Source: an uncultured Acidimicrobiales bacterium (lineage in GTDB: Bacteria > Actinomycetota > Acidimicrobiia > Acidimicrobiales > SHLQ01). From it: 32,181 bases of DNA. The stretch is taken from assembly GCA_938002955.1 (NCBI GenBank), contig CALLAA010000175.1, positions 1-32,181 on the forward strand. Reading direction: 5' to 3'. Numbering within the stretch: position 1 is the stretch's first letter; each line of letters begins with the position of its first letter. The position numbers and the translations under genes are program-made. The notes under the pieces were generated by a model. The model ran no database searches. It was given only the letters and a program-made list of their open reading frames with translations, and was not told the DNA's origin. This document shows positions 4,947 to 14,079 of the stretch, piece after piece.

Positions 4947-5546
4947 ATGCCTGTCGAATCGGAACTTCGCATCACTGCCCTCGTGCTTGCCGCTGGGTCC
5001 TCGCGTCGCCTTGGACAACCAAAGCAGCTCCTCGAATACCGTGGGGCCACGTTGCTCGATGCCACGGTGTCTGCCGTCCTGGGCTTTGGCTTCGCCCAAA
5101 CGCTGGTGACCCTCGGCGGTGCCGCCCCAGAAGTTCGCGAGACGGTCGATCTCTCTGCCGTCCAGATCGTCGACAGCCTCCACCACACCGACGGTTGTTC
5201 GTCATCGATTGTCTCGGCGCTTGATGCCGTTGCGGAGGATGCTGACGGGTTCTTCCTGTTCCTCGGAGACCAGCCCGAGGTGCCGCAGGTAGCCGTCGAC
5301 GCCTTGCTCGAAGCGGCAGCGTCGTCGGAGATCGCCGTCGTCGACTATGCGAACGGCACGGGTCACCCCTTCTGGTTCTCCCGCGCCGTTTTCGGCCCGC
5401 TCTCGGAGCTACACGGCGATAAAGCCGTTTGGAAACTGCTCGAATCGGGTCGCTTTACCACGACACACGTCTCGGTCGACGAAGACGTTCCGCTCGATGT
5501 CGACACGTGGGAAGACTACGAACGGCTTCTCGCTGCGCTCGGTTAG
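4947..5546 (+). CDS. MobA/MocA-like molybdenum cofactor nucleotidyltransferase
   Basis: This 199-residue protein has the NTP-transferase signature LAAGSSRRLGQPKQLL at about 14-29, the metal-binding FLGDQPEVP near the middle, and the NGTGHPFWFSRAVF and DVDTWEDYERL segments typical of MocA and related enzymes. These transfer CMP or GMP from CTP/GTP onto molybdopterin-Mo to make the dinucleotide cofactor; CO and xanthine dehydrogenase-type enzymes of bacteria use the cytosine form. A GTG at 4944 would add one residue. It diverges from the XdhC-like gene across about 30 bases, so their promoters must be compressed or overlap coding sequence. Its stop overlaps the PilZ gene's stop by 4 bases in convergent orientation. 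Confidence 0.85.
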   Translation: MPVESELRITALVLAAGSSRRLGQPKQLLEYRGATLLDATVSAVLGFGFAQTLVTLGGAAPEVRETVDLSAVQIVDSLHHTDGCSSSIVSALDAVAEDADGFFLFLGDQPEVPQVAVDALLEAAASSEIAVVDYANGTGHPFWFSRAVFGPLSELHGDKAVWKLLESGRFTTTHVSVDEDVPLDVDTWEDYERLLAALG

Positions 5547-5983
5547 CTCGCTTCGCGGCGCTGCGAACGTCGGTCTCCGGCGTAGATGTCTTCCACATAA
5601 CCCGCGCCAAGCCAAGAGGACTCTTGGAACTTGCGGCCACCCTTGCTCGCGTCGAGCCATTGCTCGATGACGGCCATGAACTCTTTGGGTGGTTGCTCCA
5701 GCTGTAACCGCAACATCTTGGTGCTGTTGTCGTCGTCGCTCGTCACGACGGCTCTGACGCGTGCAGGGCTGGACTCGTCGTGGAACATGATCCGGACCGA
5801 CGCGCCAACCGGCAGGTCGACTTTGTGGTCCACCAGTACCTTTGCTCCCTCGACCGACAAGTCGATGGTCTGCATGGCAACCGTGTGTGTCTTGATTCCC
5901 CCGATACGTCGCTTCACCTGCCACCGGAGGTGGCCTTGAACTTCGACGTCGGTTCGGGCAAAAATACGTCGCTCGAATCCCAT
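5543..5983 (-). CDS. PilZ-domain protein, predicted c-di-GMP binder
   Basis: The 146-residue protein has both PilZ signatures: arginines at the N-terminus (ERRIFAR, giving R6-x3-R10) and the D-x-S-x-x-G motif as IDLSVEGAKV at about 40-49, followed by VGASVRIMF and a strand pair (ARVRAVVTSDD, KMLRLQLEQPP). PilZ proteins bind cyclic di-GMP between these motifs and pass the signal to motility, surface or secretion machinery. A basic 40-residue tail follows the domain. It is a lone gene between convergent and tandem neighbours, with no diguanylate cyclase or pilus gene in the window, so its output is unknown. The ATG start is well placed, 3 residues before the RR motif. Confidence 0.83.
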   Translation of the reverse strand: MGFERRIFARTDVEVQGHLRWQVKRRIGGIKTHTVAMQTIDLSVEGAKVLVDHKVDLPVGASVRIMFHDESSPARVRAVVTSDDDNSTKMLRLQLEQPPKEFMAVIEQWLDASKGGRKFQESSWLGAGYVEDIYAGDRRSQRREAS

Positions 5984-6019: not shown

Positions 6020-7132
6020 TCAGCCAGGGTGGTACTTCGGCAGCCGGATCGTGATCTCCGTTCCTGCGTTCTTGCCGGTTTCGATCGTCAGCCCATATTC
6101 GTTGCCAAAGGTGGAGCGAAGGCGCGTATCGACGGCCAGGATTCCAACGTGGGAGGCCGAATCCCCACCGCCGAGCGCGCGCTCGAGTTGGAGGGGATCG
6201 ATGCCCACCCCATCATCGGCGACCGAGATCGCGATCTCGGGTCCGGCATTCACGGCAACGATTCGGAGCTGCCCCTTGCCTGCCCGAGCTTCAAGGCCGT
6301 GGCGGATAGCGTTTTCGACGAGCGGTTGGATGCTGAGAAAGGGGAGTCGGACGGGTAGGGCTTCGGGTGCGATGTTCAACGAGACGTCGAAACGATTTCC
6401 GAAGCGAGCTTGTTCCAGCTCCAAGTACGCCTCGACGAGGCGCAGCTCTTCAGCGACCGTCGTGAGGTCGGTCTGCGTTCGGAAGCTCGCTCGAAGGAAC
6501 TCGGCGAACGTGACGATCAGGTCGCGGGCCATCACGGGGTCGGTGTTGACGAGCCCCGCAATTGCGGTGAGTGAATTGTGGACGAAGTGGGGCGAGATCT
6601 GCGCCCGTAGCGCCTTGAGCTCCGCCTCGGCGGCGTAGGCCCGTGATTGCTCAAGTTCGGCGAGCTGCAGTTGGCTTGCGACCAACCGTGCAAACTGATC
6701 CAACGCACCGACCTTGGAGCCGCCGACGTCGGCCATTACATGAACGGTGCCGATCACCACGTCTTCGAAGAGCAGAGGGGCTGCGGCCACTTCGGCCTCG
6801 CCTCGCCCGGTCGAGAGCTGGTACACGGTCGGCCGCTTGACCCGTCGACGATCGACCACGGCCGACGTTTGCTCGCGGACCGCTGGGTCCCATCCGTTGG
6901 TCTCCTGACCGACGCTCGCAAGAACTTCGGTGTCGCTCGTAACCGCCACCGCCCGGGCATCGAGGACGATCTTTGCTGTATGGGCAATCTGCTCGGCAGC
7001 GCGTTGGTCGAACCCTCCACGCACCACGAGCGCAAGCTCGTTCAGCGATGTCAGGACGTCGATCACTGGCGGATCGCCAGACGAGTCTCCACTCGACACC
7101 CCGAGAAATCGTTTCGGGGACCTCCGGCTCAT
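6020..7132 (-). CDS. LytS-type sensor histidine kinase, cytosolic (GAF-like + His_kinase + HATPase)
   Basis: This 370-residue protein has a GAF-like sensor region (about 25-155) and a short coiled linker (QLAELEQSRAYAAEAELKALRAQ). The His_kinase domain follows with the phosphoacceptor His182 in ISPHFVHNSL. The ATP-binding domain has an N box (PLVENAIRHG, Asn274) and a G1 box (VADDGVGID, about 305-312), then GILAVDTRLRSTFG. This is the LytS/BtsS/YpdA kinase class, but without the usual 5TM-LYT membrane sensor, so it should read an intracellular signal. Its ATG overlaps the symporter stop by 4 bases, placing it last in a DUF485-like/symporter/kinase transcript. The partner is almost surely the LytTR regulator diverging at 9267. 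The ligand is unknown; acetate or pyruvate status is a guess from context. Confidence 0.88.
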   Translation of the reverse strand: MSRRSPKRFLGVSSGDSSGDPPVIDVLTSLNELALVVRGGFDQRAAEQIAHTAKIVLDARAVAVTSDTEVLASVGQETNGWDPAVREQTSAVVDRRRVKRPTVYQLSTGRGEAEVAAAPLLFEDVVIGTVHVMADVGGSKVGALDQFARLVASQLQLAELEQSRAYAAEAELKALRAQISPHFVHNSLTAIAGLVNTDPVMARDLIVTFAEFLRASFRTQTDLTTVAEELRLVEAYLELEQARFGNRFDVSLNIAPEALPVRLPFLSIQPLVENAIRHGLEARAGKGQLRIVAVNAGPEIAISVADDGVGIDPLQLERALGGGDSASHVGILAVDTRLRSTFGNEYGLTIETGKNAGTEITIRLPKYHPG

Positions 7133-8835
7133 GCCGGGCCGCCGTCAAAGCGATCGGGAACGTGCATGAGTGCAAACTTATATCCGAGGTCGCTGACGAC
7201 CTCGTGATCTCGGAGCGAGACCGTAATTCCCACCGCGAACGCAATCGGGACGCTCCAGACAGCGGGGGTACCGAGAATGGCGAGAGGCCATCCGGAGTCG
7301 ACGATCCCGAACATCGTCGTCAACACCGCTGTGGTGCTCGTGCCTCCACCGACGAGGATGGCGGCGAGCGCACCGTTGCGCGTCAGCCGCTTCCACCAAA
7401 TACCGAGGATCAGCAGCGGTGCAATCGACGACGCAGCGATCGACGTGGACCACCCGATCAGCACGTTGATGTCGGTGCGCTCGACCGCCAGCGCCGTCAT
7501 GACCGAGAACGCGGCGAGCGTCCACACCGCGACGCGGAACTGTCGAACGCCGGCGGACATCAGATCGTGGCTCACCGCTCCGGCCATGGCGATCAACAAT
7601 CCCGAAGATGTCGACAGGAACGCGGCCGCAGCACCAGCCGAGACGATGGCGGTGATCAGTTCGCCGCCGATGCCCTCAACGAGTCGTTCGCCGACAGAAA
7701 CTGTTGCCGAATCGGTTGTCGCCGCACCGAGGAGCCCGGGGCTGAGGACACGGCTGGCAGCGCCGAACAGTGGCAACATCGCGTAGTACGGCGCGATAAG
7801 CGCAAGCACGATGAGATTTGTTCGGCGTGCCTCCCTCCCCGTGGGGTTGGTGTAGAAACGAACGATGACATGTGGAAGCCCCATGAGGCCAAACATGTTT
7901 GCGAGGACGATGGCGAACGAGAAGTAGAGCGGGTGTCCGCCGCCGACCCCTTTGTCGCCGAGGGGCTTCGACCAGTCCTCGCCAGAGATAGCTTCGATGC
8001 TCGACGCATGGGGGGCCAGCGCTCCCGCCGGCCAGTCGATGGTCGTCCCCGCCGTAACATCGTGGGACCCAGCGTCGAGAACGAGCGACCCGGAGCCTTT
8101 GTCGCCCACGAGCCCGTCAACGACGACCACAGTGGTGGTTTCGGCAACGTCGATCGCGACGTCGTTGGGATAGTCGACCGTCGTGGCCTCGACGAATACT
8201 GGCGTCGAGTCCGTGATGATCGGGTCGAGGTCGCCACGGAACCAGACGACGCTCATGACCGCGAACGGTACGAGGATGCCGAGAAAGATGAAGAAAAACT
8301 GGAAGCCCTGAACAAAGGTGATGCCGCGCATCCCGCCTGCACTCAGGTTGATCGCCACGAGGGCGCCAACGGCGAGCACCCCGACCCAGTACGGGGTGCC
8401 GAGTAGCGCTCGCGTGACCACACCGGCGCCCTTCAGCTGGGCGAGGAAGAAGAACCAGCTGACGACGATCACCATGATTGCGACCACCTGGCGGAGTCGA
8501 GGGCTGTCGAGACGCCCCTCGATGAACTCGGGGATCGTGTACGAGCCGAACCGCCGGATCGGGGCTGCGATGAACAGTGAAAGCAGCAGAAATCCGATCG
8601 TCCATCCAACGAGCGGCCACAGCATTTCGAATCCAAAAACGAAGATCAACGCCGGAACGCCGAGGTAACTCGCCGCGGACATTGCTTCGCCACACACGGC
8701 GAACGCGTTCCATACGGGATGGACCGTTCGCGACGCAACAAAGAAGTTCGATGTCGTTCGCGCATAGCGCAAACCTGTCGTCCCAAGCAGCAATGTCATC
8801 GCGACGACGAGACCAACAGCGGCGACCGGAATCAC
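7129..8835 (-). CDS. Sodium/solute symporter, ActP-like, with extracytoplasmic insertion
   Basis: This 568-residue multi-pass protein is of the SSS family. Typical segments include VASRTVHPVWNAFAVCGEAMSAASYLG near 33-60, the SYTIPEFIEGRL loop near 98-109, and GLMGLPHVIVRFYTNPTGREARRTN near 316-340, which is characteristic of acetate/pyruvate permeases (ActP, MctP). Around residues 200-300 (7936-8238) there is a long polar, Thr/Val/Asp-rich stretch between two membrane spans, longer than I expect for ActP. A small DUF485-like gene lies upstream, overlapping by 4 bases, as in yjcH-actP. The kinase follows with a 4-base overlap. The likely substrate is a short monocarboxylate such as acetate or pyruvate; the substrate itself cannot be read from sequence. 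Confidence 0.85.
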   Translation of the reverse strand: MIPVAAVGLVVAMTLLLGTTGLRYARTTSNFFVASRTVHPVWNAFAVCGEAMSAASYLGVPALIFVFGFEMLWPLVGWTIGFLLLSLFIAAPIRRFGSYTIPEFIEGRLDSPRLRQVVAIMVIVVSWFFFLAQLKGAGVVTRALLGTPYWVGVLAVGALVAINLSAGGMRGITFVQGFQFFFIFLGILVPFAVMSVVWFRGDLDPIITDSTPVFVEATTVDYPNDVAIDVAETTTVVVVDGLVGDKGSGSLVLDAGSHDVTAGTTIDWPAGALAPHASSIEAISGEDWSKPLGDKGVGGGHPLYFSFAIVLANMFGLMGLPHVIVRFYTNPTGREARRTNLIVLALIAPYYAMLPLFGAASRVLSPGLLGAATTDSATVSVGERLVEGIGGELITAIVSAGAAAAFLSTSSGLLIAMAGAVSHDLMSAGVRQFRVAVWTLAAFSVMTALAVERTDINVLIGWSTSIAASSIAPLLILGIWWKRLTRNGALAAILVGGGTSTTAVLTTMFGIVDSGWPLAILGTPAVWSVPIAFAVGITVSLRDHEVVSDLGYKFALMHVPDRFDGGPA

Positions 8836-9221
8836 TGCGCATCCCCGCGATGTTCAGACGTCCACTCGAGTTCCTTACGGAGCGCATTTCGGTCGTGCCG
8901 CCAGGCAATGCCGACGATCGAGAAAAGGGTTACCGGACCCAAAAGAAGCCATGGAAGCGGAATTCCTCGAACAAAAAAGTCGGTCAGTCCGGGCCAAAAA
9001 ACGAAGCTCACGAGCACGAGCAGTACCGGTGCAAGAAGCCTCACGAGATAGCGGAGCGCGAGCTTTCTCTGGAACTCGACAAGTGCAAAAACTTCGCTGT
9101 TTTGAACGGTAAATCCACGAACGTGGCTTCCATAGGTTCGGTTTCGATCGACCCGTCGAGCAGCTGCCGTGCGCGGGTGCAGCACGATCTTTCGTCGGTT
9201 CGGGTCCACCTCCTCGTCCAT
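8832..9221 (-). CDS. Small two-TM membrane protein, DUF485/YjcH-like symporter partner
   Basis: From the ATG at 9219-9221 the protein has 129 residues. It has a basic N-terminal part (DEEVDPNRRKIVLHP), then EVFALVEFQRKLALRYL, a first membrane span LLAPVLLVLVSFVFW, a short PGLTDFFVRGIP loop, a second span LLLGPVTLFSIVGIAW and a charged end (RHDRNALRKELEW). This order (F--LV--R, span, PG...V--GIP, span, D...L--E) matches DUF485/YjcH proteins that accompany ActP, but the N-terminal extension is unusual. An open frame continues to 9323, but that would run into the divergent response-regulator gene, so I chose the later ATG. It overlaps the symporter start by 4 bases. Confidence 0.68.
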   Translation of the reverse strand: MDEEVDPNRRKIVLHPRTAAARRVDRNRTYGSHVRGFTVQNSEVFALVEFQRKLALRYLVRLLAPVLLVLVSFVFWPGLTDFFVRGIPLPWLLLGPVTLFSIVGIAWRHDRNALRKELEWTSEHRGDAQ

Positions 9222-9232
9222 GGCTGAGGGAG

Positions 9233-9269
9233 CATAGCCGTTGGTCGAGACGACGGTCACAGGGCTATG
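9233..9269. promoter_or_regulatory. Divergent promoter gap with an inverted repeat
   Basis: The 45-base gap between the symporter operon and the LytTR regulator holds an exact 7-base inverted repeat: CATAGCC at 9233-9239 and GGCTATG at 9263-9269, the right arm covering the regulator's ATG. With arms about 30 bases apart centre to centre it could be an autoregulatory binding site. It could equally be chance. No clear -35/-10 pair is visible. Confidence 0.3.
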
Positions 9270-10025
9270 GTCGACGTCGTGTTGCGAGCGTTGGTCGTCG
9301 ATGACGAGAAGCCGGCACGTCACGATCTCATTTGGATGCTCGAGCGGGAGTCAGAGGTCGGCGACATCGCCGAGGCGTGCGGAGGTGCCGACGCGCTCAA
9401 GCTGCTGACCAACACCACGAGCAAAGACCGCTTCGATGTCGTGTTCCTCGACATGTCGATGCCCGATCTCGATGGGCTCGATATTGCCCGGATGATCGGT
9501 CGGTTCGAGGAGCCTCCAGCGATCGTGTTTGTCACCGCGTTCGACACACCTGCGTCCGATGCCTTCGATCTCGGCGTAATCGACTACCTGCGAAAGCCCG
9601 TTGCCGCAGACCGACTTCGTCGAGCCGTCCAGCGCGTTTCAACATTGCGGCAGACGACGACGGGTCCGCCAGACTCAGATCTGCAACCCGTTCGGATTGC
9701 GGTTGCCACGAGCGGTGGCAATCAGCGTCTACTCGGACCGAGCGACGTGACACACTTCGAGTCTTGTGGCGACTACGTCCGCGTACATACCGACGATGAG
9801 TCCTATCTGATCCGCGACACGATGACGCGTCTCACCAACGGGTGGACGCGCTACGGATACATTCGCATCCACCGCAGTTTTGCCGTTCGCATTTCAGCCG
9901 TGAGCGAGGTCCGTTCGGGGCCCGCTGGACGCAGCGTGTGTATTGGAGATGCCGAACTTCCGGTGAGCCGACGATACGCCCGAGACCTCACCCAACAGCT
10001 AACGGCGACGAACGACACGCCATAG
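9267..10025 (+). CDS. LytTR-family response regulator
   Basis: This 252-residue protein has a receiver domain with the acidic pair in VVDDE (12-13), phosphoacceptor Asp62 in VVFLDMSMPDLDG, Thr90 in IVFVTAFD and Lys110 in YLRKPV. A C-terminal LytTR DNA-binding domain follows (about 140-247), with DVTHFESCGDYVRVHT, a Met-Thr-Arg-Leu helix, RIHRSFAVRISAVSEV and ELPVSRRYARDL, all standard for the family. LytTR proteins bind pairs of 9-10-base direct repeats about two helical turns apart. It diverges from the operon carrying its probable kinase and symporter and lies directly upstream of the TRAP importer, making both uptake systems possible targets. Confidence 0.9.
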   Translation: MVDVVLRALVVDDEKPARHDLIWMLERESEVGDIAEACGGADALKLLTNTTSKDRFDVVFLDMSMPDLDGLDIARMIGRFEEPPAIVFVTAFDTPASDAFDLGVIDYLRKPVAADRLRRAVQRVSTLRQTTTGPPDSDLQPVRIAVATSGGNQRLLGPSDVTHFESCGDYVRVHTDDESYLIRDTMTRLTNGWTRYGYIRIHRSFAVRISAVSEVRSGPAGRSVCIGDAELPVSRRYARDLTQQLTATNDTP

Positions 10026-10071
10026 CCGGTCACTCATCGACCGCTTATCGCACGCCATCGTGCCGCTGGCC

Positions 10072-10099
10072 GTGAAAAACGTGGCGTTTAGTGAAAACG
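10072..10099 (+). promoter_or_regulatory. Direct repeat upstream of TRAP operon, candidate LytTR site
   Basis: GTGAAAAACG at 10072-10081 is followed by GTGAAAACG at 10091-10099, a near-identical direct repeat with starts 19 bases apart. Between them lies a small inverted repeat (AAACG, CGTTT). LytTR regulators usually bind two direct repeats spaced about 20-22 bases, so the arrangement fits loosely. It sits 95-125 bases before the likely small-permease start and just past the LytTR gene. No binding evidence exists; the slightly short spacing is a weakness. Confidence 0.4.
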
Positions 10100-10181
10100 G
10101 GTCAGCGGTCTGGACTGTGACCCCCGCCACCATGAATGCTGGATGAACAACGAGGGGGAAATCGAGTGTTGTTGCACCAAC

Positions 10182-10186
10182 GAGGG
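10182..10186 (+). promoter_or_regulatory. Ribosome binding site deciding the small-permease start
   Basis: GAGGG is placed 7 bases before the GTG at 10194. The upstream ATG at 10143 has no purine-rich sequence at the right distance, so this site favours the GTG start. Confidence 0.5.
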
Positions 10187-10193
10187 ATCGGCT

Positions 10194-11081
10194 GTGCCTG
10201 ATCCGACGGCGGCCGAGCGTCGCATGGATGATGAAAAGATCGAGGGCCTCGGTGCTGACGGCGAAGTCGCCGCTGCACCCGACGAGAGCGCCGACTCGCC
10301 GGCCCTGCCCATCTTCGAGAAGCTGCACCCGCTCGGGCTGAGCGCCGGCGCTGCACTCATCGCCGCAGTGATTGGCCACGTCGCCTTCGACACCGAGCGA
10401 CTCGTCGGCAACATGGCGTGGTGGCAATGGGCCCTCCTCGTTGCAACGATTGCGCTTTCATTCGCTCCCACAGCGCTGCACGCCATCCGCGTGACGATCG
10501 AAGGCATTGGCTCGTTCGCCGGAAAGCTCGTGTGGATTGCTGCGTGGTTGATCTTCTTGGTGCAGATGATCAACGTTGTCACGCGCTACCTCAACCCGTT
10601 CTTCGAAAGCGACATCCTCGTCGGTGAATTGACGAGTGTGGCATGGCAGCTCTTTGCCTTCGTTGCGCTCGTCGGCTTGCCCTACGGCGTCAAAGCTGCG
10701 GTCAATCCACGAATCGACTTCTGGTGGGCTGACTGGTCGTTCCGAAGAAAGGCGTGGCTCGACTTTGTCATGCACACGTTCTTCTTCCTTCCGTTCCTGT
10801 ATGCGGCAAACATCATCCTTGTCGACTTCGCCGCCGGAGCTCTCGGCCGCAAGCGTGGCGATGGCTCATGGCCCGACGGATGGCGCGTTTGGAACTCTTG
10901 GGAAGTTTCAAACGATGCCGACCAACTTCCGTTTGGCCCGGTGAAGGCGCTCATCTTGGTGGGCTTCACCTTCTTCTTCCTGCAAATCTTGGCCGAGATC
11001 ATCAAGACCGGCTTCGTGCTTATGGGTCGACGCGAGTACGGCGATGTTGCTGCCGGTGACGAATTTCAGAGGATCGAGTAA
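10194..11081 (+). CDS. TRAP transporter small permease (DctQ-type), six predicted spans
   Basis: From the GTG at 10194 the protein has 295 residues; an ATG at 10143 or 10224 is also in frame. After a charged, disordered start (about 1-45) I see about six hydrophobic spans: GLSAGAALIAAVIGHVAF, WWQWALLVATIALSFAP, KLVWIAAWLIFLVQMINVVTRY, AWQLFAFVALVGLPYGV, MHTFFFLPFLYAANIILV and PVKALILVGFTFFFLQILAEII. The family core has four, so two are extra at the N-terminus. The VWNSWEVSNDADQLP loop before the last span is typical of small permeases of the FcbT2/TakQ kind. It stabilises the large permease and works with the binding protein in sodium-driven solute uptake. Its stop overlaps the large-permease ATG by one base. 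Confidence 0.82.
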   Translation: MPDPTAAERRMDDEKIEGLGADGEVAAAPDESADSPALPIFEKLHPLGLSAGAALIAAVIGHVAFDTERLVGNMAWWQWALLVATIALSFAPTALHAIRVTIEGIGSFAGKLVWIAAWLIFLVQMINVVTRYLNPFFESDILVGELTSVAWQLFAFVALVGLPYGVKAAVNPRIDFWWADWSFRRKAWLDFVMHTFFFLPFLYAANIILVDFAAGALGRKRGDGSWPDGWRVWNSWEVSNDADQLPFGPVKALILVGFTFFFLQILAEIIKTGFVLMGRREYGDVAAGDEFQRIE

Positions 11082-12700
11082 TGGGTGTGCTAGCGATCGA
11101 ATCATTCATCGGACTCGAGTGGGGTGTTTTCCTCGCACTCGCGATGTTCGTCGTCTTCATGTTCCTCATCCTCACCGGATACAACGTGGCGTTCTCGTTT
11201 GCGAGTGTCTCGGTGGCCTTCGCTTTCATCGGCGATCTCACCGGCGTCTTCCGGGTTGGATCGCTCAATGCGCTGACGAGCCAGTGGTTCGATTCGGTGA
11301 AGGACGCAACACTCCTTGCCGTGCCGCTCTTTGTGCTGATGGGTGCGATCCTCGAGAGATCCGGCCTCGCCGAGCGGCTCTTGAATGCGATTGGCTTGCT
11401 CATGGGTCCGTTGCGAGGCGGCGTCGCTGCTGCGGTCGTCATCGTCGGAACCTTGCTCGCTGCCGCAACCGGCGTCGTCGCAGCGACCGTGATCGTGATG
11501 GGCTTGCTGTCCTTGCCGTCGATGGTGCGACTCGGTTACGACCACAAGCTTGCAACCGGTGCAATCACGGCCTCGGGAACGTTGGCACAGCTCTTGCCGC
11601 CGAGCATCGTGCTCATCCTGCTTGCGAACCAGTTGAGCGTAGGAATCTTGGGGCTGTTCGCCGGAGCGCTACTGCCCGGTCTGCTGCTCTCGGGTATGTA
11701 CGTCGCGTACGTGCTGATCTACTCGATGATCAAACCCGAAGCTGGGCCAGCGATGCCGCCCGAGGAACGCAAGCTTGCTGGCAACCCCACGCTGCAAACC
11801 AAAGCGATCCTTGCGCTCATCCTTTCGTCGATGGTGTTCCTCGTGCTGATCCTTCGCGGAGCGAGTCCCGACACGGAGAATGCGCTGTCGTTCGCACTGA
11901 TCGTTTCCGGAATTGCGTTTGCGATCTTCTTCGGAATCATGGCGATGACCCGCATGCTCGGCACCGAGGTGTTGGTGTCGATTATCCCGACGGTCGTGCT
12001 CATCTCTGGCGTGCTGTTCTCGATCTTCTCTGGCATTGCCTCACCGTCGGAGTCCGGAGCTGTCGGCGTCTTCGGCGCTCTGGTCCTAACCGTCATGAAC
12101 TACATGGTCGATAGGCGCCTCGCGAACGAAGGTGCCGAACACATCACGTCCGAATGGAAACTCAATCCACCGGCGCTACGTCAGGCGGGTATCTCCACCG
12201 CCAACATCACGATCCTCGTGATGACACTGTTGTTCTGCTCGAGCTTCTTCCGTCTGATGTTCCGTGAGCTCGGTGGAGCCGACCAAGTGTCCGATTGGCT
12301 CACCGCCGTTGGTGGCGGCAAGTGGGGCTTCGTGCTCATTGCGATGGTCGCGGTCTTTCTCCTCGGCATCAACCTCGAGTTTCTCGAGATCACGTTCATT
12401 GTTGTCCCCATCTTCGTGCCGGCCATGGAAGAGCTTGGTTTCACCGAAGCCGAGAAGATCTGGTTCGCAATGTTGATGGCGGTCAACCTGAACATGGCGT
12501 TCATCTCCCCGCCGGTGGGCTTCTCGCTCTTCTATCTACAGAGCGTGGCCCCACCCGAAGTCAAGACCGCGAGCATCCACAAGGGCGCAATCCCGTTCAT
12601 GGTCTTGCAAGGCATCGCACTCGTCATCCTCGGAATCTGGGACGAGATCACATTCACGTCAATCCGACTATTCAGCGACATCGAAGTCACGTCTGGTTGA
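11081..12700 (+). CDS. TRAP transporter large permease (DctM-type)
   Basis: This 539-residue protein has about 12-13 hydrophobic spans with the DctM pattern. Early on come FLALAMFVVFMFLILTGYNVAFSF and the segment LTSQWFDSVKDATLLAVPLFVLMGAILERSGLAERLL. The glycine-rich VAAAVVIVGTLLAAATGVVAATVIVMGLLSLPSM follows, and then GTLAQLLPPSIVLILL and a late ITFIVVPIFVPAMEELGF / AVNLNMAFISPPVGFSLFYLQSVAP. It forms the sodium-coupled translocation channel. The length above 500 residues and these motifs fit the TakM/FcbT3 subgroup for 2-oxoacids, mannitol-like or chloroaromatic acids. An AGAGGA lies just upstream inside the small-permease gene. The sequence gives no direct substrate evidence. Confidence 0.9.
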   Translation: MGVLAIESFIGLEWGVFLALAMFVVFMFLILTGYNVAFSFASVSVAFAFIGDLTGVFRVGSLNALTSQWFDSVKDATLLAVPLFVLMGAILERSGLAERLLNAIGLLMGPLRGGVAAAVVIVGTLLAAATGVVAATVIVMGLLSLPSMVRLGYDHKLATGAITASGTLAQLLPPSIVLILLANQLSVGILGLFAGALLPGLLLSGMYVAYVLIYSMIKPEAGPAMPPEERKLAGNPTLQTKAILALILSSMVFLVLILRGASPDTENALSFALIVSGIAFAIFFGIMAMTRMLGTEVLVSIIPTVVLISGVLFSIFSGIASPSESGAVGVFGALVLTVMNYMVDRRLANEGAEHITSEWKLNPPALRQAGISTANITILVMTLLFCSSFFRLMFRELGGADQVSDWLTAVGGGKWGFVLIAMVAVFLLGINLEFLEITFIVVPIFVPAMEELGFTEAEKIWFAMLMAVNLNMAFISPPVGFSLFYLQSVAPPEVKTASIHKGAIPFMVLQGIALVILGIWDEITFTSIRLFSDIEVTSG

Positions 12701-12741
12701 CCGCAGAGCTAGCTAGAAACATCAACAGGAGGGAATCCACG

Positions 12742-13956
12742 ATGGAAAATGAAGAAACAATGGGGGACGAGGTTGACTTCAACCGCCGTTCATTTCTCGG
12801 CAAGGCCGGGGTTGGCGTAGCCGGTCTCGCCGCAAGCTCAGCGGTACTCGCTGCGTGCGGCAGCTCGACCGACGACACCGCCGAAGCTGACGCCGAAGCC
12901 GATGTAGCTGAAGCGGACATCATCGAGTCATCTCAGGAAGCACCAGAGATTGCCTGGGACATGGCCACCTCATGGCCGACCGGCCTAGTCACGATCTTCG
13001 GTGGCGCGACCTTCTTCACCGAACAGGTCAGCCGACTTACCGGCGGACGTTTCCAGATCACGGCTCGTCCAGCAGGCGAAATCGTTGGTGGCACCGAGGT
13101 GCTCCCAGCAGTATCGAGCGGCGGCGCCCAGGCCGGACACACCGCGTCGTACTACTACACCAACATCAGCCCGGTTCAGCAGTTCGGTACCGCAATGCCG
13201 TTCGGTCTCAACCAGCGTCAGCAGAACGCTTGGCTGATGCAGCCATACGGCGGCAACCCACGCGGCATGGACATCCTCAACGAGTTCAACGCATCTGAGC
13301 ACGGCACGATCAGCTTCCCTGCTGGTGGCACCGGCTGTCAGATGGGCGGTTGGTTCTCGAAGGAGATCAACACCGTTGGCGACATCAACGGCTTGAAGAT
13401 GCGTATCCCCGGTATTGCCGGCACCATTCTGACGAACCTCGGCGGTGAGGCCATTGGTATGCCTGGTGGCGAAATCCTCCAGAACATCCAGACCGGTGTT
13501 ATCGATGCTGCAGAGTTCGTGGGACCAACCGACGACCTTATCCTCGGCCTCGACCAGCTCGACGGCGAGCTGTTCTACTACCACCCAGGTTGGTGGGAGC
13601 CAGGAACCGCGCTCGAGGTACAGTTCCCGCTCGACGCGTGGAACGAACTGCCAGAGCAGTACCAGGCAGCGATCGAGACCGCAGCTGCATACGCGAACAT
13701 GAACATGCTCGCGACGTACGACACCCTCAACCCGGTCGACTTGCAGCAGATCAAGGGCTTCGCGGAGATCCGTGAATTCAGCCCAGAGATCATGGATGCA
13801 TTCAAGACCGAAACCGAGAGTGTCATGGACGGCTTGGCTGCCGAGAATGCCCAGTTCGGAGAGATCCTTGGACCATGGCGTGAGTACCGCGACGCGGTAT
13901 CGGAGTGGCACGGCCTTGCCGAGCGCTCGTACCTCACGCAGCAGACTGGCGCCTAA
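12742..13956 (+). CDS. TRAP transporter substrate-binding lipoprotein (TakP/FcbT1-type)
   Basis: This 404-residue protein has a twin-arginine-like start (NRRSFLGKAGVGVAG) leading to a lipobox (VLAACGSS). An acidic Ala/Asp/Glu linker and then the DctP fold from about residue 70 follow. Family landmarks are TSWPTGL, GGRFQI, PAGEIVGG, WFSKEINTVGDINGLKMRIPG with the substrate-clamping Arg, GGEILQNIQTGVIDAAEFVGP, and FYYHPGWWEPGTALEV. The last motif is typical of TakP-like binding proteins for 2-oxoacids such as pyruvate. The ATG at 12742 is preceded by AGGAGGG; the frame is open further upstream but overlaps the large-permease gene. Codon use is shifted to CCA for Pro and GCA/GCT for Ala, as expected for a strongly expressed gene. 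Confidence 0.9.
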   Translation: MENEETMGDEVDFNRRSFLGKAGVGVAGLAASSAVLAACGSSTDDTAEADAEADVAEADIIESSQEAPEIAWDMATSWPTGLVTIFGGATFFTEQVSRLTGGRFQITARPAGEIVGGTEVLPAVSSGGAQAGHTASYYYTNISPVQQFGTAMPFGLNQRQQNAWLMQPYGGNPRGMDILNEFNASEHGTISFPAGGTGCQMGGWFSKEINTVGDINGLKMRIPGIAGTILTNLGGEAIGMPGGEILQNIQTGVIDAAEFVGPTDDLILGLDQLDGELFYYHPGWWEPGTALEVQFPLDAWNELPEQYQAAIETAAAYANMNMLATYDTLNPVDLQQIKGFAEIREFSPEIMDAFKTETESVMDGLAAENAQFGEILGPWREYRDAVSEWHGLAERSYLTQQTGA

Positions 13957-13985
13957 GTCACCAACGCGTGAAGACCCCTCCTGTG

Positions 13986-14017
13986 CAATGGAGCCCCGTG
14001 CAAGCGGGGCTCCATTG
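13986..14017 (+). terminator. Strong hairpin terminator after TRAP operon
   Basis: CAATGGAGCCCCG (13986-13998) and CGGGGCTCCATTG (14005-14017) form a perfect 13-base-pair stem with a 6-base loop, 30 bases past the binding-protein stop. No U-tract follows, which is common for actinobacterial intrinsic terminators. It separates the TRAP operon from the next cluster. Confidence 0.8.
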
Positions 14018-14079
14018 TGCGCGAGTCTTCAGACGCTTGGCCGAGTAGACATACCAGGCGTCCAACGAAGGAGTGCAGC

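Follow-up and report, generated by a model that had tools for sequence, protein, structure and literature searches.

Organization of the locus

The stretch of DNA analyzed here, termed the window, comprises 32,181 nucleotides and is contig C175 of the 3.93-Mb genome G000 of an uncultured Acidimicrobiales bacterium. It carries genes for a LytS-type histidine kinase, a LytTR response regulator, a sodium:solute symporter (SSF1) with a small membrane protein, and a tripartite ATP-independent periplasmic (TRAP) importer (Table 1). A first-pass annotation of this DNA placed a soluble LytS-type kinase in an operon with an ActP-like symporter and set the LytTR regulator against a TakP/FcbT-type TRAP importer. 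Both assignments were borne out, the former by PF06580/HATPase_c and SSF matches and by 4-nt overlaps at the small protein/SSF1 and SSF1/kinase junctions, the latter by a gene with REC and LytTR domains (9267-10025, plus strand, as first called) followed by those for DctQ, DctM and DctP (10143-13956). Kinase and regulator thus constitute an adjacent LytS/LytTR pair. The starts at GTG 9279 instead of ATG 9267 for the regulator, at ATG 9221 for the small protein, and at GTG 10194 instead of ATG 10143 for DctQ appear more likely because the alignments of relatives begin there.

Table 1. Positions of the genes and predicted elements in the window.
Feature	Position	Strand	Basis
LytS-type histidine kinase, soluble	6020-7132	-	PF06580 1.4e-22; HATPase_c 2.1e-9
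Sodium:solute symporter SSF1, ActP/VC_2705/MctC-like	7129-8835	-	PF00474 4.2e-42
Small membrane protein, DUF485-like symporter partner	8832-9221	-	orthologues adjoin SSF1 in relatives
Divergent promoter region, 57 bp	9222-9278	.	-10-like boxes back to back, read from sequence
LytTR response regulator, BtsR-like	9279-10025	+	Response_reg 1.7e-21; LytTR 2.3e-17
Predicted operator, three half-sites	10029-10072	+	weight matrix rank 1 in window; conservation
Candidate TRAP promoter (TGGACT 10111-10116, TGAATG 10133-10138)	10111-10138	+	inference; TGGAC invariant in 5 orthologous gaps
DctQ small TRAP permease	10194-11081	+	PF04290 3.2e-6
DctM large TRAP permease	11081-12700	+	PF06808 2.2e-74
DctP substrate-binding protein, TakP type	12742-13956	+	2hzk 2.3e-71; 7ug8 8.4e-84
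Hairpin closing TRAP operon	13982-14021	+	z-score -7.6 for 13968-14030

The His182 box and the ATPase motifs of the kinase are intact, and His182 and the N and G residues are invariant in all 31 aligned kinases, the window kinase included. The window kinase displayed neither a Pfam match of the 5TM-Lyt type, the multi-span sensor of the LytS/BtsS membrane kinases, nor an N-terminal hydrophobic segment, which agrees with the earlier statement that it lacks the membrane sensor; many actinobacterial orthologues, unlike it, begin with a hydrophobic helix. The GAF-like domain that had been ascribed to the protein fared less clearly: the Pfam scan of the window kinase itself gave no GAF match, whereas PF01590 was matched in 11 of the 31 aligned kinases. 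The AlphaFold model is of low confidence (predicted local distance difference test score, 59.6), with a sensor topology that may be compatible with GAF. An intracellular signal for the kinase is possible.

The regulator is 31% identical to Escherichia coli BtsR and 75% identical to the regulator of its closest named relative, an uncultured Acidimicrobiales genome. Its best NCBIfam match, the BtsR equivalog NF008677, reached 132.3 bits against a cut-off of 246. The LytTR domain of this regulator is the only one in G000. The symporter fell under every curated subfamily cut-off (TIGR03648, 244 bits against 321). The small protein had been called a DUF485-like partner; it gave no match to DUF485 (PF04341) at the gathering score, and the probable likeness derives from its position and from borderline matches in some relatives, L047 alone of nine proteins just passing the cut-off.

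A predicted operator ahead of the TRAP genes

A LytTR-type operator was predicted at 10029-10072, beginning 4 nt after the regulator stop codon and preceding the TRAP genes. It consists of three 11-bp half-sites, GTCACTCATCG (10029-10039), ACCGCTTATCG (10040-10050) and GCCGCTGGCCG (10062-10072), with pair spacings of 11 and 22 bp. Those at 10040 and 10062 are separated by 11 nt, which conforms to the LytTR operator as defined in PMC4847170, namely two repeats of 9-11 nt with 11-13 nt between them. The regulator-to-DctQ gaps of five orthologues share the tandem element GACCGYTYATC/GACCGYTYRTCG, and the operator is retained in 5/5 genus orthologues. A 22-bp pattern, which was widened after sites had been seen, matched without mismatch at two places in eight genomes, both ahead of TRAP operons (the window and G637); the window match is the sole one in its own genome. 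The direct repeat at 10072-10099, named in the first-pass annotation as a candidate site for TRAP, was discarded: the exact 7-mer GTGAAAA occurs there twice, unreported by the repeat finder, and its first copy is absent from three of the five orthologous gaps, the conserved element lying just upstream. No scoring LytTR-type pair was present in the divergent symporter/kinase promoter in any of six loci. Because that promoter is devoid of a site, the TRAP genes are, on this comparison, the likely direct target of the regulator.

Weight matrices were applied across loci. Three loci, in G617, G656 and G419, have the same half-sites at 21-22 bp ahead of the kinase gene, on the strand of a second symporter that is transcribed divergently, and these supplied a first matrix. 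When 12 other loci were tested, the top pair of the entire locus fell between SSF1 and the second carrier in 11, with 0.53 expected by length; in the twelfth (G637) it overlapped the gap edge by 2 bp. This test was preceded by a preliminary look with that matrix. The first matrix placed the window site fourth in the window, and the site rose to first once further SSF2 loci had been added to the training. Only other actinobacterial loci, none from the genus and none with TRAP genes, entered the retraining, though the window and TRAP sequences had already been inspected. The retrained matrix gave its top rank in the 32-kb window to 10040-10072 at a spacing of 20-22 bp and to 10029-10050 at 11 bp. 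The rank-1 pair occupied the gap before DctQ in all seven TRAP-linked loci at one or other spacing; for G010 this held at 11 bp alone, and for G283 and G637 at 20-22 bp alone. Two hundred column-shuffled matrices reached at most 7/11, 2/7 and 3/7, and wrong spacings gave 0 to 5/11 and 0 to 3/7; the value of 5/11, at 41-43 bp, agrees with sites that have three half-sites.

Distribution of the regulator and the TRAP genes

Among 19 genomes of the family, a close orthologue of the regulator (66-100% identity) was found in five, the symporter in the same five, and the TRAP protein in these and in G009, whose contig ends inside DctM. Within the genus, regulator, symporter and TRAP go together. A phylum search detected the regulator in 67/396 genomes. 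Thirty-five regulator regions were fetched: the genus and class contributed 15, and the other 20 were taken from the 30 loci that the phylum search gave. The kinase was present in 34, the symporter in 33, and TRAP genes in six (four genus members, G283 from another family, and G637 from outside the class). Because of these counts, kinase, regulator and symporter appear to be an old unit to which a TRAP link, found in three lineages, is a rarer addition. In the class (395 genomes) the regulator occurred in 13 genomes, the TRAP protein in 66 and both in seven (Fisher p = 0.002, uncorrected for descent). The linkage that the earlier annotation expected across genomes held in part: it was kept inside the genus, but TRAP and regulator genes were adjacent in only three of the seven class genomes that have both.

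Twenty further TRAP loci were examined, four from genomes whose regulator lies on a different contig and 16 from regulator-free genomes. In G291 the TRAP genes are on a different contig from the regulator, yet a site scoring 28.9 stands just before DctQ. In the 16 regulator-free loci, of which 11 have a DctQ match, pair scores did not exceed 16.7 at any position, and within 350 bp upstream of the DctQ match they did not exceed 8.5. Where a match starts far into DctQ, 350 bp does not reach back far enough, so that the maximum over the whole locus is the better guide.

Predicted regulon across genomes

Twenty-four regulator-bearing genomes were searched with the pattern; places were complete for all except G637 and G715, and the simple-repeat matches of G715 were left out of the count. 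The matches listed include 22 zero-mismatch sites, none of them in G336. Organic-acid carriers follow 17 of these: MctC (8), CstA (3), a metabolite/H+ major facilitator superfamily (MFS) protein (3), an MFS protein of the oxalate/formate-antiporter family (lactate-type; 2) and a VC_2705 symporter (1). Because seven of the 17 were training sites, the independent figure is 10/15. The five non-carrier sites are in G214 (C253, where the contig ends after SSF1), G291 (C38), G598, G607 (310250) and G433 (7910217), the last ahead of a TerC gene. Thirty regulator-free genomes yielded four zero-mismatch matches and the reversed control two. One-mismatch matches genome-wide were rejected as mostly background (166 forward plus reverse versus 114 in the reversed control), as were those of the strict genus pattern with up to three mismatches. 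MctC, BtsT and CstA are named as pyruvate transporters, and YhjX putatively so, in PMC7730263.

An operator also is located upstream of the kinase gene itself in G291 (L050 18460-18491) and likewise in G336, which suggests autoregulation of the kinase in both genomes. In G291 a gene for an NhaA antiporter is preceded by a one-mismatch site (L234 1293-1324), which may be background. A table in the review PMC9739842 lists SCO1217 of Streptomyces coelicolor as an orphan kinase and SCO1220 as an orphan LytTR regulator. Because the gene order in the g210 genomes is regulator, small protein, symporter, kinase, the numbering suggests that these correspond to the kinase and regulator of this module, and the two orphans are predicted to form a pair.

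The TRAP importer and its probable substrate

DctQ scored 27.5 bits, just under the Pfam cut-off of 28.3. DctP matched both TakP (2hzk), the homologous TRAP binding protein of Rhodobacter sphaeroides, and the ketoacid-binding protein 7ug8. In TakP, pyruvate and sodium are held by the side chains of Tyr100, Gln156, Arg177, Glu214 and Glu240 and by a main-chain contact of Trp215, according to PMC1839085. All five side-chain ligands are identical in the window DctP when read off the TakP alignment; the two proteins differ at Trp215, which is Phe in DctP. Because these side chains are conserved, the importer is likely a sodium/2-oxoacid transporter of the TakP type. To our knowledge no LytTR pair adjoins takP. 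In G283, two more DctP paralogues (~60% identical) lie beside the kinase (L046 12458-14762), with no extra permease seen there.

Comparison with known systems

The first-pass annotation likened the pair to the pyruvate-sensing systems of E. coli, and the comparison is apt. BtsS/BtsR responds to pyruvate and controls btsT. The BtsR (YehT) site oligonucleotide of yjiY/btsT carries GCCGCTCA, ACCGCTTA and ACCACTCA at 20 and 21 bp (PMC4847170, as given in its Table 1). The two systems share a LytTR regulator, the core RCC(G/A)CT(C/T)A with a ~21-bp period, and, in relatives of the window system, CstA-family targets. The actinobacterial core equals that of this oligonucleotide; the 8-bp core pair was equalled in 4/20000 shuffles, and a 7.5-kb E. 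coli control contained no pair that reached it. The systems differ in that BtsS is membrane-bound whereas the window kinase is soluble, the window regulator scores below the BtsR cut-off, and the window target is a TRAP importer. YpdA/YpdB, which answers to pyruvate and acts on yhjX, is likewise a LytS/LytTR pair, with an MFS carrier as its target. Two relatives of the window system have the site ahead of an MFS gene assigned to the oxalate/formate-antiporter family, of which YhjX is a member. By contrast, the YpdB motif, GGCATTTCAT, is unrelated to the window operator. In the SLC5-STAC kinases CrbS/R and RpuS/R an SLC5 symporter also is tied to the kinase; the two are fused there through STAC, whereas they are separate genes in the window. 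The output of RpuS/R is similarly a separate monocarboxylate carrier, the pyruvate symporter MctP (PMC9100948).

A full-text literature search, whose coverage mostly excludes subscription papers, found no paper on this actinobacterial module; for the LytTR systems of Actinomycetota, the present analysis supplies a specific candidate operator and predicts a regulon. The comparison suggests that Enterobacteria and Acidimicrobiia have both kept a DNA code for the pyruvate response, with carriers of unrelated families replacing one another behind it.

Proposed mechanism and alternatives

The interpretation favored here, with a probability of roughly 0.78, is that a LytS/LytTR pair of the pyruvate/2-oxoacid type switches on a TakP-type TRAP importer through the site at 10029-10072. 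The soluble kinase, by way of an N-terminal GAF-like input, would phosphorylate the regulator, which would bind the 11-bp half-sites, located by comparison, upstream of the TRAP promoter and so activate the sodium/2-oxoacid importer. Across Actinomycetota the module of kinase, regulator, small protein and SSF1 remains intact, and it is the carrier under its control that changes: MctC, a VC_2705-type symporter, CstA, a YhjX-like MFS protein or another MFS protein, and TRAP in this genus, G637 and G291. SSF1 would be produced together with the kinase and is itself not behind a recognizable site.

Several observations weigh against this interpretation. The best pair in G283 is weak and overlaps the hairpin of an intrinsic terminator. 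G013 and G010 have their clear pair at a spacing of 11 bp instead of the canonical 21-22 bp. Most TRAP occurrences in the class are without the regulator. The regulator-bearing genomes G127, G222 and G261 have an unlinked TRAP with no site before it; the site there precedes a second symporter. The likeness to E. coli covers 8/11 positions, the last three being unshared, and the full 11-mer pair scores 4.4.

A tentative alternative assigns SSF1 and its small partner to the input side: they would work like the SLC5-kinase sensors CrbS and RpuS, but split between separate proteins, with substrate occupancy of SSF1 or flux through it setting the activity of the kinase and TRAP as the sole output. 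SSF1 accompanied the pair in 33 of the 35 fetched regions though usually not behind an operator, its gene overlaps that of the kinase by 4 nt, and RpuS/R, as described in PMC9100948, pairs a fused SLC5 domain with activation of MctP. However, the window kinase has no membrane segment, no STAC-like linker was seen, although no search was aimed at one, and a common substrate may be all that links transporter and sensor. Extended to the phylum, it is conceivable, if doubtful, that the symporter, itself no target of the regulator, acts together with the small partner and a kinase that is soluble or has a single membrane anchor as a split transporter-sensor for pyruvate-like acids. Its output would be one or another of several unrelated carriers, in the window TRAP, reached through one operator code partly shared with E. 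coli BtsR.

The original proposal that one pair may control two uptake systems is supported for TRAP, where operator evidence is strong and includes the unlinked G291 locus, and is not supported for the symporter operon. Direct regulation of both, with the regulator binding the divergent gap as well, is unlikely: that gap is only 57 bp and lacks a scoring pair in 6/6 loci, and among 19 other regions upstream of the kinase, 14 contain no pair that scores ≥20. In its favor are the shared locus, the single site between the kinase operon and MctC in G617, G656 and G419 that could serve both, and the sites upstream of the kinase in G291 and G336. It is very improbable that the conserved repeat is bound by another regulator while the LytTR protein acts elsewhere, since the only LytTR domain of the genome is next door, geometry and core match published LytTR/BtsR sites, and the 16 TRAP loci of regulator-free genomes (11 with DctQ seen) have no site before TRAP.

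Other features of the locus

A PilZ-domain gene (5543-5983, minus strand) lies 36 bp downstream of the kinase and is kept in G016; it was undetected with the window query in the other three genus loci. The hairpin directly after dctP has no T run and is very stable. In the divergent gap, -10-like boxes stand back to back, TATGCT (9236-9231, minus strand) and TATGGT (9266-9271, plus strand), the latter, at the first-called ATG of the regulator, in keeping with the likelier GTG start. Because these boxes are 7-9 nt ahead of both start codons, their placement suggests leaderless transcripts for the regulator and the small protein.

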